Positions 18,201 to 31,658 of a stretch of DNA of 64,000 bases are shown here, in pieces. The notes under the pieces are model-generated. The model was not told where the DNA came from. It worked only from the letters and a program-made list of their open reading frames with translations, and did not search any database. Source of the stretch: Spirochaetales bacterium (GTDB taxonomy: Bacteria; Spirochaetota; Spirochaetia; Treponematales; Treponemataceae); assembly GCA_029098225.1 (NCBI GenBank), contig JAQXNX010000014.1, positions 140,790 to 204,789 of the forward strand. The letters are read 5' to 3'. Position 1 is the first letter of the stretch. The number at the start of each line of letters is the position of its first letter. A program made the position numbers and the translations under genes.

Positions 18201-18235
18201 ATATGTAATAATTCGGCAGGTATAAAAATCTGCGC

Positions 18236-18287
18236 TGCACGTTAATGCGTGCTTACCGAGTTTTCGCTATGCGAAAACTCGCTTGTG

Positions 18288-18288
<1 letters not shown>
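18236..18288 (-). repeat. Two-hairpin palindromic element, family A (after groL)
   Basis: Directly after the groL stop codon, on the minus strand: CAAG, a stem CGAGTTTTCGC/GCGAAAACTCG with a 3-nt loop, GTAAG, then a second hairpin GCACG..CGTGC. The ACTCGGTAAG linkage and the order of the two hairpins match the elements after asnS and inside the GH115 gene. It may also terminate or protect the groL message. Confidence 0.7.
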
Positions 18289-19997
<1,709 letters not shown>

Positions 19998-25314: not shown

Positions 25315-28236
25315 CTATTTGATTCTGTAAGTTTCCGGTGCTCCCAGATAAGACTTTGGCATAGGCTTGTTTGCTTCGTGAATCACGATTTTTTCAAGCA
25401 CTATATTTGGAGTTACCGGGCTCAGTTTTACAGAGTTCAAGCCTGCATGGCAGTCTGCATAAACAGTTGCAATGCGGATATTATTCGGAATATCTTCTCC
25501 CCAAGGGAACTGATTATCACCAACTGCAAACTTTTCAGGATCAACTGCATCCTTCAAAAGTCTCTGACCGTTTATTTCTGCTATAAACTGAAGTTTATTA
25601 TCTTTATAAGCCGGATTTGAAGGATTGATGTAGAAATCAAAAGCCATAACTCCGCCGGTCTTTTCTACAAAATCTTCAGACAAAGCAAATGCATACTCAA
25701 CAAAAGGAGCGTCCTTAGCATCAGGAGCAAAAGTTCTGATTGTATCAGAAGCCTTTACAGCACCCAGAGTTTTTCCATATCCTTCAAGCAAATCAAAACC
25801 GCTCGAACGCACAAAATGAGGAGCTTCCATACTGATATAGTTTGTTGTCTGAACAAAGGTTCCGGCCGGGAAGTTAGTATCTACAGAAGCAGCATCCACA
25901 TGAACCTTAACGAGAATGCGGGCTCCGTGACCATCGTTGCCTTCAATTGTGATTATATCACTTTTGTCACTTTCTTTTGCAAGCTTTTCACGGTCAATTG
26001 TAAGAAGAATTGTGTCAATATTAGCAAGCTTATCACCAAGGCCTTCTTCATCCTTTATGATTTTGCCGTTAAGCCAGCGCTTTGAATCATCCTTGTCATA
26101 CTTTCCAAGAGTTACTGTATATTCACAGCCAGGTTCATTGCAGTTTGCAAGCTTTATGCGGGCTTCATTGCAATCAGGATTTTTGAAAGCGTCAAGATAA
26201 AGGTCGCGTATAGTCCAGTCCTGACCGGTGGTTGTAAAGTCTGCACCATCAATCCAGAAAACATTACGCTTTTTGCGGGTAGGTTCAACATAAGCATAAA
26301 CCGGATATGAGTTAGCAGCTTCACACCAGTTATTAAAGCCAAAGTGCTCAGACCAGGCCATTCCAAAGAAGCGGCCACCACCTACCTTATCACATTCATC
26401 AACAAGCTCTTTATCCGCCTTTACACACTCGCGAACCTTGTCCGCATACACATTAGCGACAAGGGCGTTGTGACTTGCAAACCAGCGGTTCTTTCCACTG
26501 TACAGCTGCATAAGTTCAACATTCATTGTTCCCACAACAGGAAGATAAACCTGGCTGAAGAAGCCAGCCTCCTGCTCTGCCGGAACAAGCGCACGAAGAG
26601 CCTTTGTGCGCTCAATCAAAGCCTTTGCATGGCTGATAATATAATCAGCTTCACCAAAGTTTACCGGATGGAAGGTGTCCGGCTTAAGGGCTTCTGTTCG
26701 GCACATACTTGTGATTTTATTTGATTCATAGACAATATCAGAAAGCTCTTTTACCTGCTCAGCAGTAAAATATGGGAAAGCAGATGCAAACCACTGGTCA
26801 CAATAAGCCTTAGTATCAGAATTATATTTTTCATAATCGTAAGCAAGATTAAGGAAGTAAGAAAGCGGGAACTCGTTTGTAAGAATATCTCCGACATTTA
26901 CAATCCAGAGGTCGCGGATTCCAAACTCGTAGGCAGCAGACATCTGTTCACGGGCCTTTGGAAGATAATTGGTATTGAGCCACTCGTAGCTGTAAGGCCA
27001 TCCGTGGTAATCAAAATGGTAATACATACCGTAGCCGCCCTTGTGAGAGCGCATGTGTTCAGTTGGAACAGTACGAAGGTTTCCGTGGTTATCGTCACAG
27101 AGCATGAGGGTTACGCCCTCAAGCTCAGGATCATCCATAAGACCCTTTGTATGCTTATCGCCGTAGAAGTATGGCTCAACCTCTTTGTATAGGGCAAGCA
27201 TACGAGGAACTTTATCGAGATCCTGATTTACATTTTCACGGATAAGACGGTTCTGAGTTTTAAGAACGTCGCGCAAAAGGTTTATGTTGTCGGCCAGAGT
27301 AGCGTTCTGCATGATGGCTGTATCAGCTTCGCCGCGCATACCAACAGTGATTACATTTTCAAACTTGCCGTTACGTTTTAAGCCGTCTTCCCAGAACTTT
27401 GTAATTCCCTCGCGGTTTTTCCAGAAGTTCCAGGCATCACCGTAAATAGAACCAGGGCCGCGCACATAGCGGTATTCCTCTCCGTTACGGCAACATGGCT
27501 CATGGTGGCTGGCTCCCATAACTACGCCAAGCTCGTCAGCAAGTTCTGCATTTGCAAGGCCAGGGCCGTCCAGACTGAACTGAGCAGACCACATTGCAGG
27601 CCAGAGATAGTTTCCCTTGAGGCGGAGAAGGAGCTCAAAAACGTGCTCGTACATTTTAGCATTAAAGCCGCCAAAATTGTGGGTAGTAAAGTTGCCGTAA
27701 GCAGGCCATTCATCGTTGATAAAGAAACCACGGAAACGTACAGAAGGCTCTTTAGTTACTGTTACGCCTTCTTCGAGTTCTACAGTGTCGCGCTTTGCCG
27801 GCAAAACTCCGCACCAGTCAACGAGAGGAGAAACTCCCATAAGTTCAGAAAGATGGAAAAGACCGTAAATTGTACCGCGCTTGTCGCTTCCGATTATGAT
27901 GATTTTGTCTGAGCGGACAGCAAAAATATAGCACTCGCGTTTACCCCTGATTTTAGAAACATCTGCTGTCAGACCATTATCTGAAGCAAGCTTTTCTGCA
28001 AGAGGCGCCTGAGATATAGTGGCAAAGTAGACGGTGTTTTGTGGCGAGTTTGCGCCAGCAAACTCGGTAAGGTCGCTCTGCGACCGACTTTCGACAGGCT
28101 CAACCACCGCACTCATAGCAGGTTTCTTACCAGTCACCCGCTCCACATCAAGACATACTTTATCTGCAATTTTCTTTACACCAGAAAACTCAGCTTCATC
28201 ACAAAAAAATTCATTTTTCCCATCAATTTTGAACAT
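25315..28236 (-). CDS. GH115 family xylan alpha-1,2-glucuronidase
   Basis: This large glycoside hydrolase removes (4-O-methyl-)glucuronic acid side chains from xylan. Family-typical stretches are RGTIYGLFHLSELMGVSP, FRGFFINDEWPAYGN, LRLKGNYLWPAMWSAQF and VVMGASHHEPCCRN, all in the N-terminal half. No signal peptide is present, so it acts in the cytoplasm on imported oligosaccharides, or is exported another way. The start at 28236 (MFKIDGK) is preferred because AAGGAAAA lies upstream. Residues of about 50-68 (VESRSQSDLTEFAGANSP) are encoded by an inserted palindromic element. No neighbouring xylan genes are seen. Confidence 0.88.
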   Translation of the reverse strand: MFKIDGKNEFFCDEAEFSGVKKIADKVCLDVERVTGKKPAMSAVVEPVESRSQSDLTEFAGANSPQNTVYFATISQAPLAEKLASDNGLTADVSKIRGKRECYIFAVRSDKIIIIGSDKRGTIYGLFHLSELMGVSPLVDWCGVLPAKRDTVELEEGVTVTKEPSVRFRGFFINDEWPAYGNFTTHNFGGFNAKMYEHVFELLLRLKGNYLWPAMWSAQFSLDGPGLANAELADELGVVMGASHHEPCCRNGEEYRYVRGPGSIYGDAWNFWKNREGITKFWEDGLKRNGKFENVITVGMRGEADTAIMQNATLADNINLLRDVLKTQNRLIRENVNQDLDKVPRMLALYKEVEPYFYGDKHTKGLMDDPELEGVTLMLCDDNHGNLRTVPTEHMRSHKGGYGMYYHFDYHGWPYSYEWLNTNYLPKAREQMSAAYEFGIRDLWIVNVGDILTNEFPLSYFLNLAYDYEKYNSDTKAYCDQWFASAFPYFTAEQVKELSDIVYESNKITSMCRTEALKPDTFHPVNFGEADYIISHAKALIERTKALRALVPAEQEAGFFSQVYLPVVGTMNVELMQLYSGKNRWFASHNALVANVYADKVRECVKADKELVDECDKVGGGRFFGMAWSEHFGFNNWCEAANSYPVYAYVEPTRKKRNVFWIDGADFTTTGQDWTIRDLYLDAFKNPDCNEARIKLANCNEPGCEYTVTLGKYDKDDSKRWLNGKIIKDEEGLGDKLANIDTILLTIDREKLAKESDKSDIITIEGNDGHGARILVKVHVDAASVDTNFPAGTFVQTTNYISMEAPHFVRSSGFDLLEGYGKTLGAVKASDTIRTFAPDAKDAPFVEYAFALSEDFVEKTGGVMAFDFYINPSNPAYKDNKLQFIAEINGQRLLKDAVDPEKFAVGDNQFPWGEDIPNNIRIATVYADCHAGLNSVKLSPVTPNIVLEKIVIHEANKPMPKSYLGAPETYRIK
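28041..28112 (+). repeat. Two-hairpin palindromic element, family A, in frame inside GH115
   Basis: Stem CGAGTTTGC/GCAAACTCG (28045-28066), linker GTAA, then stem GGTCGC/GCGACC (28071-28085). It is followed by a TTTCGACAGGCTCAACCACC sequence of the kind found in dispersed palindromic repeats of several bacteria. The arrangement matches the family A copies after groL and asnS. It keeps the reading frame of the glucuronidase. Confidence 0.75.
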
Positions 28237-28459: not shown

Positions 28460-29920
28460 ATGGTACCAGTATTAATTAAAGATTTACTGTCTTCTAAGCC
28501 AGATGGGCAGAAGGTTACAGTATGTGGTTGGGTGCGCACTGTCCGCGACTCAAAGGGTCTTGTTTTTATTCAGGTGAACGATGGAAGCTGCTTTGCAAAT
28601 ATCCAGCTCACCTTTGACCGCAATAATCCTTCTAATAATGCAAATGTAAATGAAATCGAAGCTGAACTCAAAAAGCTCAACACTGGAGCAAGTCTCCGCG
28701 CTGAAGGTCTTCTTATTGAATCTCCTGCAAGCGGTCAGGCTGTAGAAGTAACTCTCGAAAGCCTCAAGTGTCTTGGCGAATCAAATCCGGATGAATATCC
28801 TTTGCAGAAAAACAAGATGTCTATGGAATATCTGCGCGACGTTGCACACCTTCGTGCCCGCACTAACACTTTTGGTGCAGTTTACCGTGTTCGTAACCAG
28901 ATGGCTTTTGCAGTACACAGCTTCTTCCAGGAGCGTGGCTTCCAGTATATTAATGCGCCGGAAATCACCTGCAGCGACTGTGAAGGTGCCGGCGAGATGT
29001 TCCAGGTAACAACCCTCAGCATGGAAAAGATTGCTGAGATGGCTGTAAAAGCCGGAAACGGCGGTATGAAGCCGGAAGACGCTTACAAGATTGTAGACTA
29101 TAAAAAGGACTTCTTTGGAAAGAAGGCCAGCCTCACCGTTAGTGGTCAGCTGGAAGCAGAAACTCTCGCTACAGCCTTGAGCCGTGTTTACACCTTCGGC
29201 CCTACTTTCCGTGCAGAAAACTCTAACACTCCACGCCACCTCGCTGAGTTCTGGATGATTGAACCTGAAATGGCTTTCTTCGACCTGGACGACGATATGG
29301 ACATTCAGGAAGACTTTGTAAAATATCTTTTGAACTGGGCTTTAACAAAGTGCCGCAGTGACCTCGAGTTCTTTGACAAGAGAATCCAGCCAGGACTTAT
29401 CGAAAGTCTTGAAAAGGTTGCAAAGGCTAAGTTCACAAGAATCAGCTATACTCAGGCAATTGAAGACCTTGAAAAGGCAGCTGCAAACGGCGCTAAGTTT
29501 GAATTCAAGCCTTACTGGGGCTGCGACATTGCAACTGAGCACGAGCGCTATCTTACAGAAAAGATTTACAACGGTCCGGTTATGGTTTACAACTATCCAA
29601 AGGAAATCAAGTCTTTCTATATGAAGCAGAATGACGACGGCAAGACTGTAAAGGCCGTAGACGTTCTTGTTCCTGGAATCGGCGAGCTTATCGGCGGTTC
29701 TGAACGCGAAGAAAACTACGACAAGCTTCTTGCTGCCTGCAAAGAGCGCAACATGGATATGTCAAACTACGAATGGTATCTCGACCTTCGCCGCTTTGGT
29801 ACAGTTCCACACTCAGGCTTCGGCTTAGGCTTTGAACGCCTCATGCGCTACGTAACAGGTATGGACAATATAAGGGATGTTATTCCTTATCCTAGAGCTC
29901 CTAAGCTGGCGGATTTTTAA
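28460..29920 (+). CDS. asnS: Asparaginyl-tRNA synthetase
   Basis: This class IIb synthetase charges tRNA-Asn. The OB fold is at residues 15-110 (VCGWVRTVRDSKGLVFIQV). Class II motifs include FGPTFRAENSNTPRHLAEFW (motif 2) and GFGLGFERLMRYV (motif 3). AAGGAGG precedes the ATG at 28460. The body uses highly expressed codons (CGC, TTC, GAC). The last dozen codons change to ATA, AGG, AGA and CCT. A second, synonymous version of those codons in the usual style lies 50 bp downstream, so the 3' end seems to have been replaced. Confidence 0.96.
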   Translation: MVPVLIKDLLSSKPDGQKVTVCGWVRTVRDSKGLVFIQVNDGSCFANIQLTFDRNNPSNNANVNEIEAELKKLNTGASLRAEGLLIESPASGQAVEVTLESLKCLGESNPDEYPLQKNKMSMEYLRDVAHLRARTNTFGAVYRVRNQMAFAVHSFFQERGFQYINAPEITCSDCEGAGEMFQVTTLSMEKIAEMAVKAGNGGMKPEDAYKIVDYKKDFFGKKASLTVSGQLEAETLATALSRVYTFGPTFRAENSNTPRHLAEFWMIEPEMAFFDLDDDMDIQEDFVKYLLNWALTKCRSDLEFFDKRIQPGLIESLEKVAKAKFTRISYTQAIEDLEKAAANGAKFEFKPYWGCDIATEHERYLTEKIYNGPVMVYNYPKEIKSFYMKQNDDGKTVKAVDVLVPGIGELIGGSEREENYDKLLAACKERNMDMSNYEWYLDLRRFGTVPHSGFGLGFERLMRYVTGMDNIRDVIPYPRAPKLADF

Positions 29921-29969
29921 TATGCAAGTTTCCGATAGGAAACTTGGTAAGCACGCTTGCGTGCGACTT
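29921..29969 (+). repeat. Two-hairpin palindromic element, family A (after asnS)
   Basis: Immediately after the asnS stop codon: AAGTTTCC-GATA-GGAAACTT, then GGTAAGCACGC-TT-GCGTGC. It shares the ACTTGGTAAGCACGC junction with the groL copy (ACTCGGTAAGCACGC). Confidence 0.75.
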
Positions 29970-30008
29970 ATCCCTTACCCACGCGCTCCAAAACTGGCAG
30001 ACTTCTAA
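29970..30008 (+). pseudogene. Duplicated 3' end of asnS
   Basis: Thirteen codons read IPYPRAPKLADF-stop, identical in protein to the end of asnS but with nine synonymous codon differences (for example ATC, TAC, CGC, GAC, TTC against ATT, TAT, AGA, GAT, TTT). A one-base gap upstream (GCGACTTATC against an expected CGACGTTATC) suggests the match once extended further. The codon choice fits the body of asnS better than the current gene end does. Confidence 0.8.
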
Positions 30009-30022
30009 GCTGCAGGGGCGTT

Positions 30023-30105
30023 ACGGGGGCGAGCCCCCGTTAGAAGGGGTAGCGGAAAACGCCGCAGGCGGTTGAAGCGAGGGGAAGACTTGCCCCTCCT
30101 TCTAT
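30023..30105 (+). repeat. GC-rich intergenic repeat, family B
   Basis: ACGGGGGC-GAG-CCCCCGT hairpin (30023-30040), AAGGGGTAGCGGA, GGCGGTTGAAGCGAGG and GGGGAAGACTTGCCCC. It lies directly behind the duplicated asnS tail, and its blocks match those at 14589 and, in reverse, at 17363. Confidence 0.6.
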
Positions 30106-30161
30106 AATAAATAAAGCCGGATTTCAATTATGAAATCCGGCTTTATTATTTTGAGCACTTA

Positions 30162-31658
30162 TTATTCTTCGTCTTTATCTGTTTTCTTTTTTGGTTTTTC
30201 AGTTCTGTTTTCTATGAACTTTCCAAGAACAGATTTAAGATCTATACCAAGAGTTTCTCCAAGACTTTCCGATACCTGAGTTACATTTGTCATAATATCT
30301 TTTGTAAGCTTTGAAGAATCTCCTCCATACATATAAATCTTATCGACATTCTGATATGCATTTCCTGCGGCCTCTGCAATTTTTGGAAGCTGTTCAAAAT
30401 AAACCTTCAGGGCATCGAGCTGCATCTGCTGTTTTGCGGCATCTCCATATTCCTTAAGAGCTTCGGCTTTTTCGCGCATACCGTCTGCCTCTGCAACAAG
30501 CTTTGCTTTAACGGCAGCAGCTTCTGCTTCTCCCTGTGCCTGAATTGCTTCTGCAAGTGCTTTTTTACCGGCAGCTTCATTTTCCATGGCAATCTTTTCT
30601 GCTTCGGCTTTTTTCTGTCTGGTAAATGCTTCAGCTTCTGCCTGTCGCTGAATTTCAAATGCTTCAGCTTCAGCATTTTTCTGGCGAGTGTAAAGTTCTG
30701 CATCGGCTTGCTGCTGTGCTGCGAATTTTTCAGCTTCAGCAGTCTTCTTTACTTCTGCATCAAGAGCTTTTTCCTTAATGGAAACTGCCTTTTCCTGAAT
30801 TTCAATCTGTTTTTCCTGTTTTGCAATGTTTGCATCGGCTGCTTTAATTTCCAGAACCTTTCGCTGATTTTCAGTTTCAATTCCTTTTGCAGCTTCTGCC
30901 TTTGCGGCTTCTGTATCTGCCTGGAGCTGGAGCGATGCTTTTTTAATTGCGAGATCAGTCTGTTTTTGTGCAATTTCAAGTTCAGCTGCCACGCGAGCAT
31001 CATTAGCATCTTTATCTGCCTGAGCCTGAGCAATCTTTACTTCTGCTTCGGCTGCTGCCTTTGCTTTTGCTGCGTCTTTAGAAATTGCAACTGTGTTTTC
31101 AATACCAAGATTATTGATTACACCATTGTCATCTTTAAAGTTCTGAATATTAAAAGTAGTAAGTTCAAGTCCAAGATCAAAAAGGTTAGGCTTAACATTC
31201 TCTACAACCTTTTCTGAAAGAACTTTTTTATCTCCCTGAATTAAATCCTTTAATTTAATCTGAGAAATAATTTCACGGATATTACCTTCCAGAACAGGAG
31301 TTACAACCTGAGCTATATCACTTGTTGAATAGCCGATAAATTTTGCAGCAGCGCGTTTCATAGTTTCCGGATCTTGTGATACGGCAATGTTTGCAACAGC
31401 ATCTACTTTAATATTAATTGCATCCTGCGTTGGAATTGAATCTTTAGAGACAAAATCAACCTGAATATTTTCAAGAGTCATATAATCGATTCTCTGTAAA
31501 AAAGGAATTACAAAGATTGCTTTTCCTGTTACAGTTTTTGAACCAAACGGACCAACTCTAATACCGATTCTGTTTTTTGGAACTTTCTTGTAAGAAATAA
31601 AGAAAAACAAAAACAGTACAACAACAAGGGAAATAATTAGAATAGATAAAGTAGTCAT
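30162..31658 (-). CDS. Flotillin-like SPFH-domain membrane protein
   Basis: An N-terminal membrane helix (residues 4-25) anchors the protein. The SPFH/band-7 domain occupies about 30-200 (IGIRVGPFGSKTV, VDAVANIAVS), followed by a long Ala/Glu/Lys-rich coiled coil (about 200-430) typical of flotillins. The 498-aa length is normal. Flotillins form membrane microdomain scaffolds. The short NfeD-type partner often found beside them is not present. The gene stands alone, with AGGAGG before the ATG. Confidence 0.9.
   Translation of the reverse strand: MTTLSILIISLVVVLFLFFFISYKKVPKNRIGIRVGPFGSKTVTGKAIFVIPFLQRIDYMTLENIQVDFVSKDSIPTQDAINIKVDAVANIAVSQDPETMKRAAAKFIGYSTSDIAQVVTPVLEGNIREIISQIKLKDLIQGDKKVLSEKVVENVKPNLFDLGLELTTFNIQNFKDDNGVINNLGIENTVAISKDAAKAKAAAEAEVKIAQAQADKDANDARVAAELEIAQKQTDLAIKKASLQLQADTEAAKAEAAKGIETENQRKVLEIKAADANIAKQEKQIEIQEKAVSIKEKALDAEVKKTAEAEKFAAQQQADAELYTRQKNAEAEAFEIQRQAEAEAFTRQKKAEAEKIAMENEAAGKKALAEAIQAQGEAEAAAVKAKLVAEADGMREKAEALKEYGDAAKQQMQLDALKVYFEQLPKIAEAAGNAYQNVDKIYMYGGDSSKLTKDIMTNVTQVSESLGETLGIDLKSVLGKFIENRTEKPKKKTDKDEE

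Follow-up and report, generated by a model that had tools for sequence, protein, structure and literature searches.

A candidate class of two-hairpin elements that may carry and exchange the ends of conserved genes in Treponema

The genus Treponema may harbour a so far unrecognised class of non-coding mobile element, which could be termed a "gene-end swapper", and we judge the case for and against this proposal to be evenly balanced. Such an element would consist of about 45 nt forming two hairpins that move together with the end of a conserved gene, would be guided by homology to the same gene in another species, and would have its fixed GCGAC end joined after a G near the end of that gene. 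In this way, the ends of core genes (groEL, asnS, pta, flagellin, the start of pyrG, a tRNA) would be swapped without breakage of the gene. No description of an element of this kind, or of asnS as such a target, was found in the open-licence literature.

In the window, that is, the whole stretch of 64,000 nt that was analysed, one copy lies at the 3′ end of asnS, coding for asparagine--tRNA ligase. The relevant features are given below, where R1 is a covariance model of the element core built from 13 sequences and G numbers designate genomes, G000 being the window's own.

28460..29920, plus strand: asnS, asparagine--tRNA ligase, including the in-gene tail (NCBIfam NF003037/TIGR00457, over cut-off)
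29867..29879, plus strand: AATATAAGGGATG, upstream of the joining point, common to the element-bearing G130 and G186 and absent from element-free relatives
29879..29880, plus strand: joining point P on the in-gene asnS copy, after a G (between GATG and TTATT)
29880..29920, plus strand: in-gene asnS tail, 41 nt with stop, of AGA/CCT/GAT/TTT style, taken as the incoming copy
29921..29923, plus strand: TAT separating the asnS stop from the element
29924..29967, plus strand: two-hairpin element core, 44 nt (R1 69.4 bits; fold; family covariation)
29925..29946, 29947..29950, 29951..29964 and 29965..29967, plus strand: within the core, hairpin 1, GTAA, hairpin 2 and GAC, respectively, the right end reading GCGAC
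29968..30008, plus strand: displaced asnS tail TTATCCCTTACCCACGCGCTCCAAAACTGGCAGACTTCTAA, 41 nt with stop, outside the present gene, with a full match to the tail of T. bryantii NK4A124, which has no element
18234..18282, minus strand: second element copy, immediately following groEL (18288-19913, minus strand) (R1 38.3 bits)
28044..28088, plus strand: third copy, within the N-terminal coding part of an opposite-strand GH115 glycosidase ORF (R1 47.9 bits)

The 3′ end of asnS reads ATA AGG GAT GTT ATT CCT TAT CCT AGA GCT CCT AAG CTG GCG GAT TTT TAA. As the initial annotation had pointed out, the last 12 codons and the stop recur downstream: both tails encode the same 12 residues (IPYPRAPKLADF) and a stop, with nine codons changed synonymously, the downstream copy starting at 29968 rather than at 29970. 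The two-hairpin element recognised between the tails is equally borne out, as the single-stranded DNA of 29921-29967 forms two hairpins with a folding energy of −13.8 kcal/mol (z −5.6). The same applies to the contrast in codon style that sets the present gene end apart from the gene body and the downstream copy, the codon use of the asnS body favouring the displaced copy with a log-ratio of +3.24. As to the identity of the element, an intrinsic terminator was discarded, none being found within 29850-30200, and so was a known RNA family, the Rfam gathering search of the window returning two tRNAs only. A GC-rich palindromic repeat of about 90 bp at 30015-30111 belongs to a dispersed family of its own, which occupies 27 other places in the genome, and was not taken as part of the asnS insertion; a long reading frame crosses repeats of this type at the loci L004, L008, L011, L014, L024 and L026.

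The window is close to T. bryantii, its asnS being 93% identical to that of strain NK4A124. When 196 genomes of the genus were queried with the in-gene asnS tail, allowing at most 3 mismatches, nine genomes matched. Five of them (G000, G052, G100, G130 and G186) have the same arrangement, with a second tail 88 nt downstream and a joining point common to all five; in the remaining four (G004, G149, G189 and G227) the in-gene tail is present with neither element nor second copy. A more distant asnS version with a 99-nt period is present in G007 (L043), and two intact tails were seen in 3 of the 40 loci examined, L031-L070 (the window, G007 and G052). The displaced tails are unlike one another between element-bearing genomes. 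In particular, that of the window equals the tail of element-free NK4A124 over 41/41 nt, and that of G052 matches the tail of element-free G024 over 39/41 nt and has the same downstream flank. Matches of this kind at two empty sites favour the downstream asnS copy as the native one.

The claim that an inserted element displaced the native asnS tail is upheld in so far as the element lies between two codon styles and the downstream copy looks native. One result for the window weighs against it: the closest asnS relative by protein, an uncultured Treponema (L070, 99% over residues 69-486), has an in-gene style tail alone and no element. In the lineage of the window the in-gene tail may be older, or L070 may have lost the element by recombination between tails. 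Likewise, the expectation that relatives without the element should have the displaced-style tail fused to the gene agrees with NK4A124 but not with G004, G149, G189 and G227, which carry the present tail style. These four are element-free relatives with the present tail, yet none of them carries the downstream copy, a combination that would have spoken against an insertion.

Known tail-replacing elements yield the outline that would also be left by a larger integrative element that once occupied the 3′ end of asnS and lost its cargo. That the locus is a scar of this sort is hardly credible and was rejected, given that the arrangement has the same 88-bp size in five genomes. Moreover, no cargo-bearing version is present among the loci examined, the same core occurs at 13 genes, and the segment is unmatched in a plasmid collection, as is the exact 23-base core pattern in viral contigs. 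A plasmid or viral vehicle was dismissed on these last two results.

The element belongs to a large family. R1 matches are present in 174 of the 196 genus genomes, with at least 32 matches in a single genome. When R1 was run on 146 genomes drawn from the order, 42 matched: 25 belong to the genus, 9 to the rest of the family and 8 to families outside it, the best E being 7e-8 outside the genus but within the family and 4.9e-4 or worse in other families. In 97 distinct copies, whose alignment was fitted to R1 and is hence biased toward the structure, 99.6% of cells are paired and 132 both-side changes occur, versus 20.9 ± 3.6 in shuffled alignments, with 25-51% of cells paired in slid controls. 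Besides the two covarying hairpins, GTAAG and GAC are constant.

Copies are found in diverse surroundings. Behind groEL at 18234..18282, no displaced groEL tail was recognised by eye; the groEL of the window ends in DPSMMY, and the sampled genus groEL genes with an element end in DMGGMY. The copy at 28044-28088 is antisense in the GH115 ORF, leaves its frame unbroken and adjoins what appears to be another palindromic repeat. At L213, L214, L161, L185 and L216, elements lie between or inside other palindromic repeats (GTCATTGCGAG...GCAATC, AGATT...CAATGAC, TTGAGCTTGTCGAAACC), which are present on both sides. Finally, an hsdR gene is interrupted by the element at L265 (G196), and L266 (G158) looks alike.

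The search for the segment at other gene ends, proposed in the initial annotation, proved fruitful. It was carried out on 136 element copies from 69 genomes, a non-random sample drawn from among the best-E-value R1 matches listed plus a few loci of the asnS search, with near-identical repeats and contig-end rows left out. Seventy of the 136 copies are no more than 45 nt from the stop of an open frame with 70 or more codons, and in 35 of these 70 the element is immediately followed by a repeat of the C-terminal tail of that gene, with 0/1347 in mismatched gene/element pairs. This control, together with the recurrence of the element at an 88-bp spacing at asnS in four other genomes, excludes a chance origin of the asnS tail repeat. 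At the DNA level, a tail score of at least 13 was reached by 45 of the 135 scored copies versus 1.5% of mismatched pairs. The automatic test detected no tail repeat in 35 of the 70 gene-end copies, among them L187, L192 and L250, which clearly have none; further repeats were recognised by eye at L217, L234, L254, L293 and L305.

The 35 cases are non-independent and correspond to 23 distinct sites in 13 genes: asnS, groEL, pta, ppdK, gpmI, purH-like, flagellin, carB, tkt, pflB, asnB, ilvD and fba, named by an NCBIfam search of one representative each and otherwise by the tail. In the genome of the window the element also occurs at pta, a gene named by its tail (L339). Gene starts are involved as well. 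Specifically, at the 5′ end of pyrG, coding for CTP synthase (L341, G000:C4:34200-36200), it is the N-terminus and not the C-terminus that is doubled: the gene starts with MSKFIFVTGG, a displaced second start, MAKYIFVTGG, lies across the element, and the orientation of the element is reversed accordingly. Two tandem elements precede the 5′ end of a tRNA-Pro gene identified with ARAGORN (L335, G000:C33:219600-221600), the first 20-odd bases of which recur after each element. Longer arrays exist too, with a flagellin tail, again named by the tail, present four times with three elements in between in G042 (L336), and an fba tail present three times with two elements in G222 (L343). The occurrence of cases in G042 and G114 (L235), assemblies of just four and two contigs, respectively, makes an assembly artefact unlikely.

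The two members of a tail pair are alike in protein (91.8% identity) and less so in DNA (77.8%), their codon differences being synonymous in 145 instances and non-synonymous in 25. Gene-body codon use fits the displaced copy better in 26 of 32 cases, the other 6 favouring the in-gene copy; this scoring excluded three of the 35, two having no differences and one too short a body. These data bear on the idea that a staggered cut generates a long target duplication of 14-60 nt and that the in-gene copy diverges later, as the conserved gene recombines with that of other species. The copies are direct repeats that vary in length and contain the stop, as such a process would produce; one identical pair does exist, between two copies of a tandem array (L259), and at L206 visual comparison shows agreement of the 16 nt that follow each stop. 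However, the identical pair is the only one in 35, the excess of synonymous differences is unlike that of a drifting remnant, and the nucleotides from the stop to the element are no copy of those after the displaced stop (0.291 alike, with 0.273 ± 0.029 for shuffled sequences). Plain target duplication was rejected on the synonymous bias and the divergence of the tail pairs, and we consider the variant with later divergence improbable.

Rules emerge at the junctions. The right end of the element is GCGAC in 118 of the 136 copies and ACGAC in 14. On the in-gene copy, the joining point is preceded by G in 31 of 35 cases and, when each distinct site is counted once, at 19 of 23 (p 2e-9 against a background of 0.229); the preceding base is another one in 4/35 and C in none of the 35. 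Positions −2 and −3 agree with the element end in just 6/35 and 1/35 cases and the last base of the element, C, never precedes the joint, so that no microhomology is seen at the element-end joint. By eye, the G rule also fits elements located in other dispersed repeats, where the G is followed by TCATTGCGAG, CAACGCCCC or TTGAGC. The distance of the joining point varies within a gene: 60, 50, 44 and 15 nt in gpmI, 34 and 14 in tkt, 32 and 25 in ppdK, 32 and 20 in pta. The sole clear pair with the same unit at different points is found in tkt, where L291 (14 nt) and L299 (34 nt) have an identical element and a spacer alike in 13 of 14 nt, with in-gene tails only 0.71 alike over the last 14 nt. 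Together with the fixed right end and the G rule, an identical element and near-identical spacer at two points suggest that one end is site-defined and the other is set by homology.

In the two genes in which it was mapped (asnS and the purH-like gene), the exchanged tract itself appears to extend upstream past the joining point, with homology setting where it starts. In the 19 nt that precede the asnS joining point, identity to the window is 1.000 in G130 and 0.947 in G186, versus 0.684-0.789 in eight aligned element-free sequences. Between G000 and G186, the asnS bins at least 60 nt before the stop differ by 10-16% in five of seven and by 44% and 24% in the other two, the next 15 nt by 7%; the tails are 0.976 alike and the element core is fully identical. 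On the right, the boundary is sharp at the element end. The purH-like genes of G108 and G025 (L269 and L285) give the converse picture, with bodies 95-100% identical at distances of more than 40 nt ahead of the joining point, the 40 nt next to it 0.70-0.80, the tail 0.77 and the element 0.98 alike, which places the start of the differing tail tract some 20-40 nt upstream of the joining point.

These observations lend no support to the view of the segment as an integrative element of some 100 bp that is site-specific and uses one fixed attachment site, as happens at tRNA genes. The points of joining vary, with tkt as the clear case of the same spacer and element at two of them, the shared asnS tract reaches 13 nt or more upstream of the joining point, and the targets comprise at least 13 genes with different tails, plus a gene 5′ end and a tRNA gene. 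They likewise weigh against a mini-cassette with two defined ends, in which tail and element would circularise and a recombinase acting in trans would insert this unit behind a G of the same gene, in the manner of integrons or tail-carrying integrative elements. The near-constant right end, the preference for G and the tandem arrays (L336, L343, L335) would all be expected of such a cassette; against it stand, besides the tkt pair and the upstream start of the asnS tract, the lack of R1 matches in four of five integron regions, the repeats beside the G042 integrase, which look by eye like classical attC sites, and a number of elements independent of the integron integrase (p 0.62). We therefore think a two-ended cassette unlikely. 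An integron cassette proper was rejected on the four unmatched regions, the different repeats at L315 and the same lack of association. The window's genome does encode a full-length integron integrase (G000:C11:14624-15559), as 34 of 118 genus genomes do over the curated cut-off, and attC-like repeats adjoin that of G042.

A further possibility is that nothing is active at present and that old insertions are handed from species to species through ordinary homologous recombination. Most of the named targets are conserved genes, in which cross-species recombination is easy, and the joining point is the same in all five asnS copies; several joining points each within gpmI, tkt, ppdK and pta, and a right asnS boundary at the element end instead of scattered downstream, are difficult to reconcile with passive spread alone, to which we accordingly assign a low probability.

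Among the explanations considered, the joining of a single defined end, with the other side resolved by homology, fits best, although we rate its probability as slightly short of even. The element would have come on DNA of another Treponema, its hairpin end being joined into asnS after a G and the gene part being recombined by homology, a reading of the locus that we hold tentatively and consider nearly as probable as not. A donor strand carrying the 3′ part of the gene, its stop, a few nucleotides and the two hairpins would pair with the recipient gene. The unpaired hairpin flap would end at GCGAC, either because an enzyme, or some protein, cuts there or because hairpin 2 shields that 3′ end. 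The recipient strand would then be joined to the GCGAC end at a point no more than about 60 nt before the homology runs out, and the left side would be resolved via ordinary homologous recombination. The outcome would be an intact gene with a new tail, the old tail being left as a remnant. Repeated events could give rise to tandem arrays, and later recombination between tails could delete the element, so that just a foreign-style tail would persist. The fixed end, the G rule, the tail pairs and the bias in codon use are observed, and the direction of transfer, the strand-level steps and the entry of foreign DNA are what we infer. Weighing against this one-ended joining are L070, the 4/9 tail-matched genomes that are element-free, the 35/70 gene-end copies for which the automatic test detected no tail repeat, the 6/32 cases in which the in-gene copy is body-like, the 4/35 joints after a base other than G, the single clear pair (tkt) for the same unit at different points, the non-independence of the 35 cases, and the hsdR gene interrupted at L265.

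Nor was an enzyme for the element found, and the search for the Y1 transposase domain PF01797 gave no match in G000 (assembly 95.8% complete). In the genus, a Y1 transposase was found in 28 of 118 sampled genomes and not in the other 90, and its association with element number is weak (p 0.03). Judged by co-occurrence, neither the Y1 transposase nor the integron integrase would be necessary.

If the proposal is true, it would describe a mode of mobility with one sequence-defined and one homology-defined end, in which a tiny element uses essential genes as safe harbours and carries gene ends between species. This would account for mosaic ends of conserved genes used in phylogeny, and synonymous anomalies at gene ends could be footprints of such events. 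In addition, it would offer a natural case of joining directed by a hairpin, open to dissection in vitro.

Several known systems share part of these properties. Integron cassettes carry attC boxes in the attC site and have a G at the crossover. They resemble the Treponema element in a folded single-strand site, in tandem units and in that G, but the element consensus is devoid of attC boxes, and the repeats beside a genus integron integrase (L315) are unlike the element, the number of which shows no correlation with the integrase. Integrative elements replacing gene 3′ ends, such as e14 and phage 21 in icd and SCC in rlmH, also supply an in-frame replacement tail and displace the native one. 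Their crossover site is fixed, whereas the joining point varies in gpmI, tkt, ppdK and pta; they bring an integrase and cargo, whereas the 88 bp between the asnS copies are too short for a gene; and the Treponema element is found at many genes, with a left end apparently set by homology. MITEs that form target site duplications produce short identical copies, in contrast to 1/35 identical pairs and lengths of 14-60 nt.

The REP/BIME palindromes mobilised by RAYT (Y1) transposases (PMC2817692) are comparable in being short dispersed non-coding hairpins, often clustered, with GTAA before the hairpin and a constant end after it. The foot-sequence feature is shared by the Treponema element, a short palindrome with two covarying hairpins and constant GTAAG and GAC; the latter differs in being flanked by duplicated host gene tails and in its relation to a cognate Y1 transposase. 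A RAYT-driven REP was rejected, given the Y1 distribution reported above for G000 and the genus and the weak association in counts. Rickettsia palindromic elements, which insert in frame inside genes (PMC10969869), are likewise small palindromic repeats tied to protein-coding genes, whereas at the Treponema element a gene end is duplicated and apparently swapped. Their closer analogue in the window is the repeat at 30015-30111, the type of which seems, on the evidence of the reading frames crossing it, to sit in frame inside proteins in much the same manner.

Homology-facilitated illegitimate recombination, in which one end of a linear DNA is homologous and the other is joined non-homologously, is reported to involve microhomology of 3-10 bp in most cases (PMC3240628). 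The pattern in asnS and the purH-like genes, the two in which it was mapped, is consistent with homology at one end only. The Treponema joint, in contrast, always uses the same element end, after a G, and the C that would be the first base of any microhomology precedes it in 0/35 cases. In outline the Treponema element is similar both to tail-replacing elements and to homology-facilitated illegitimate recombination, but defining features that were tested for each of the two fail here.
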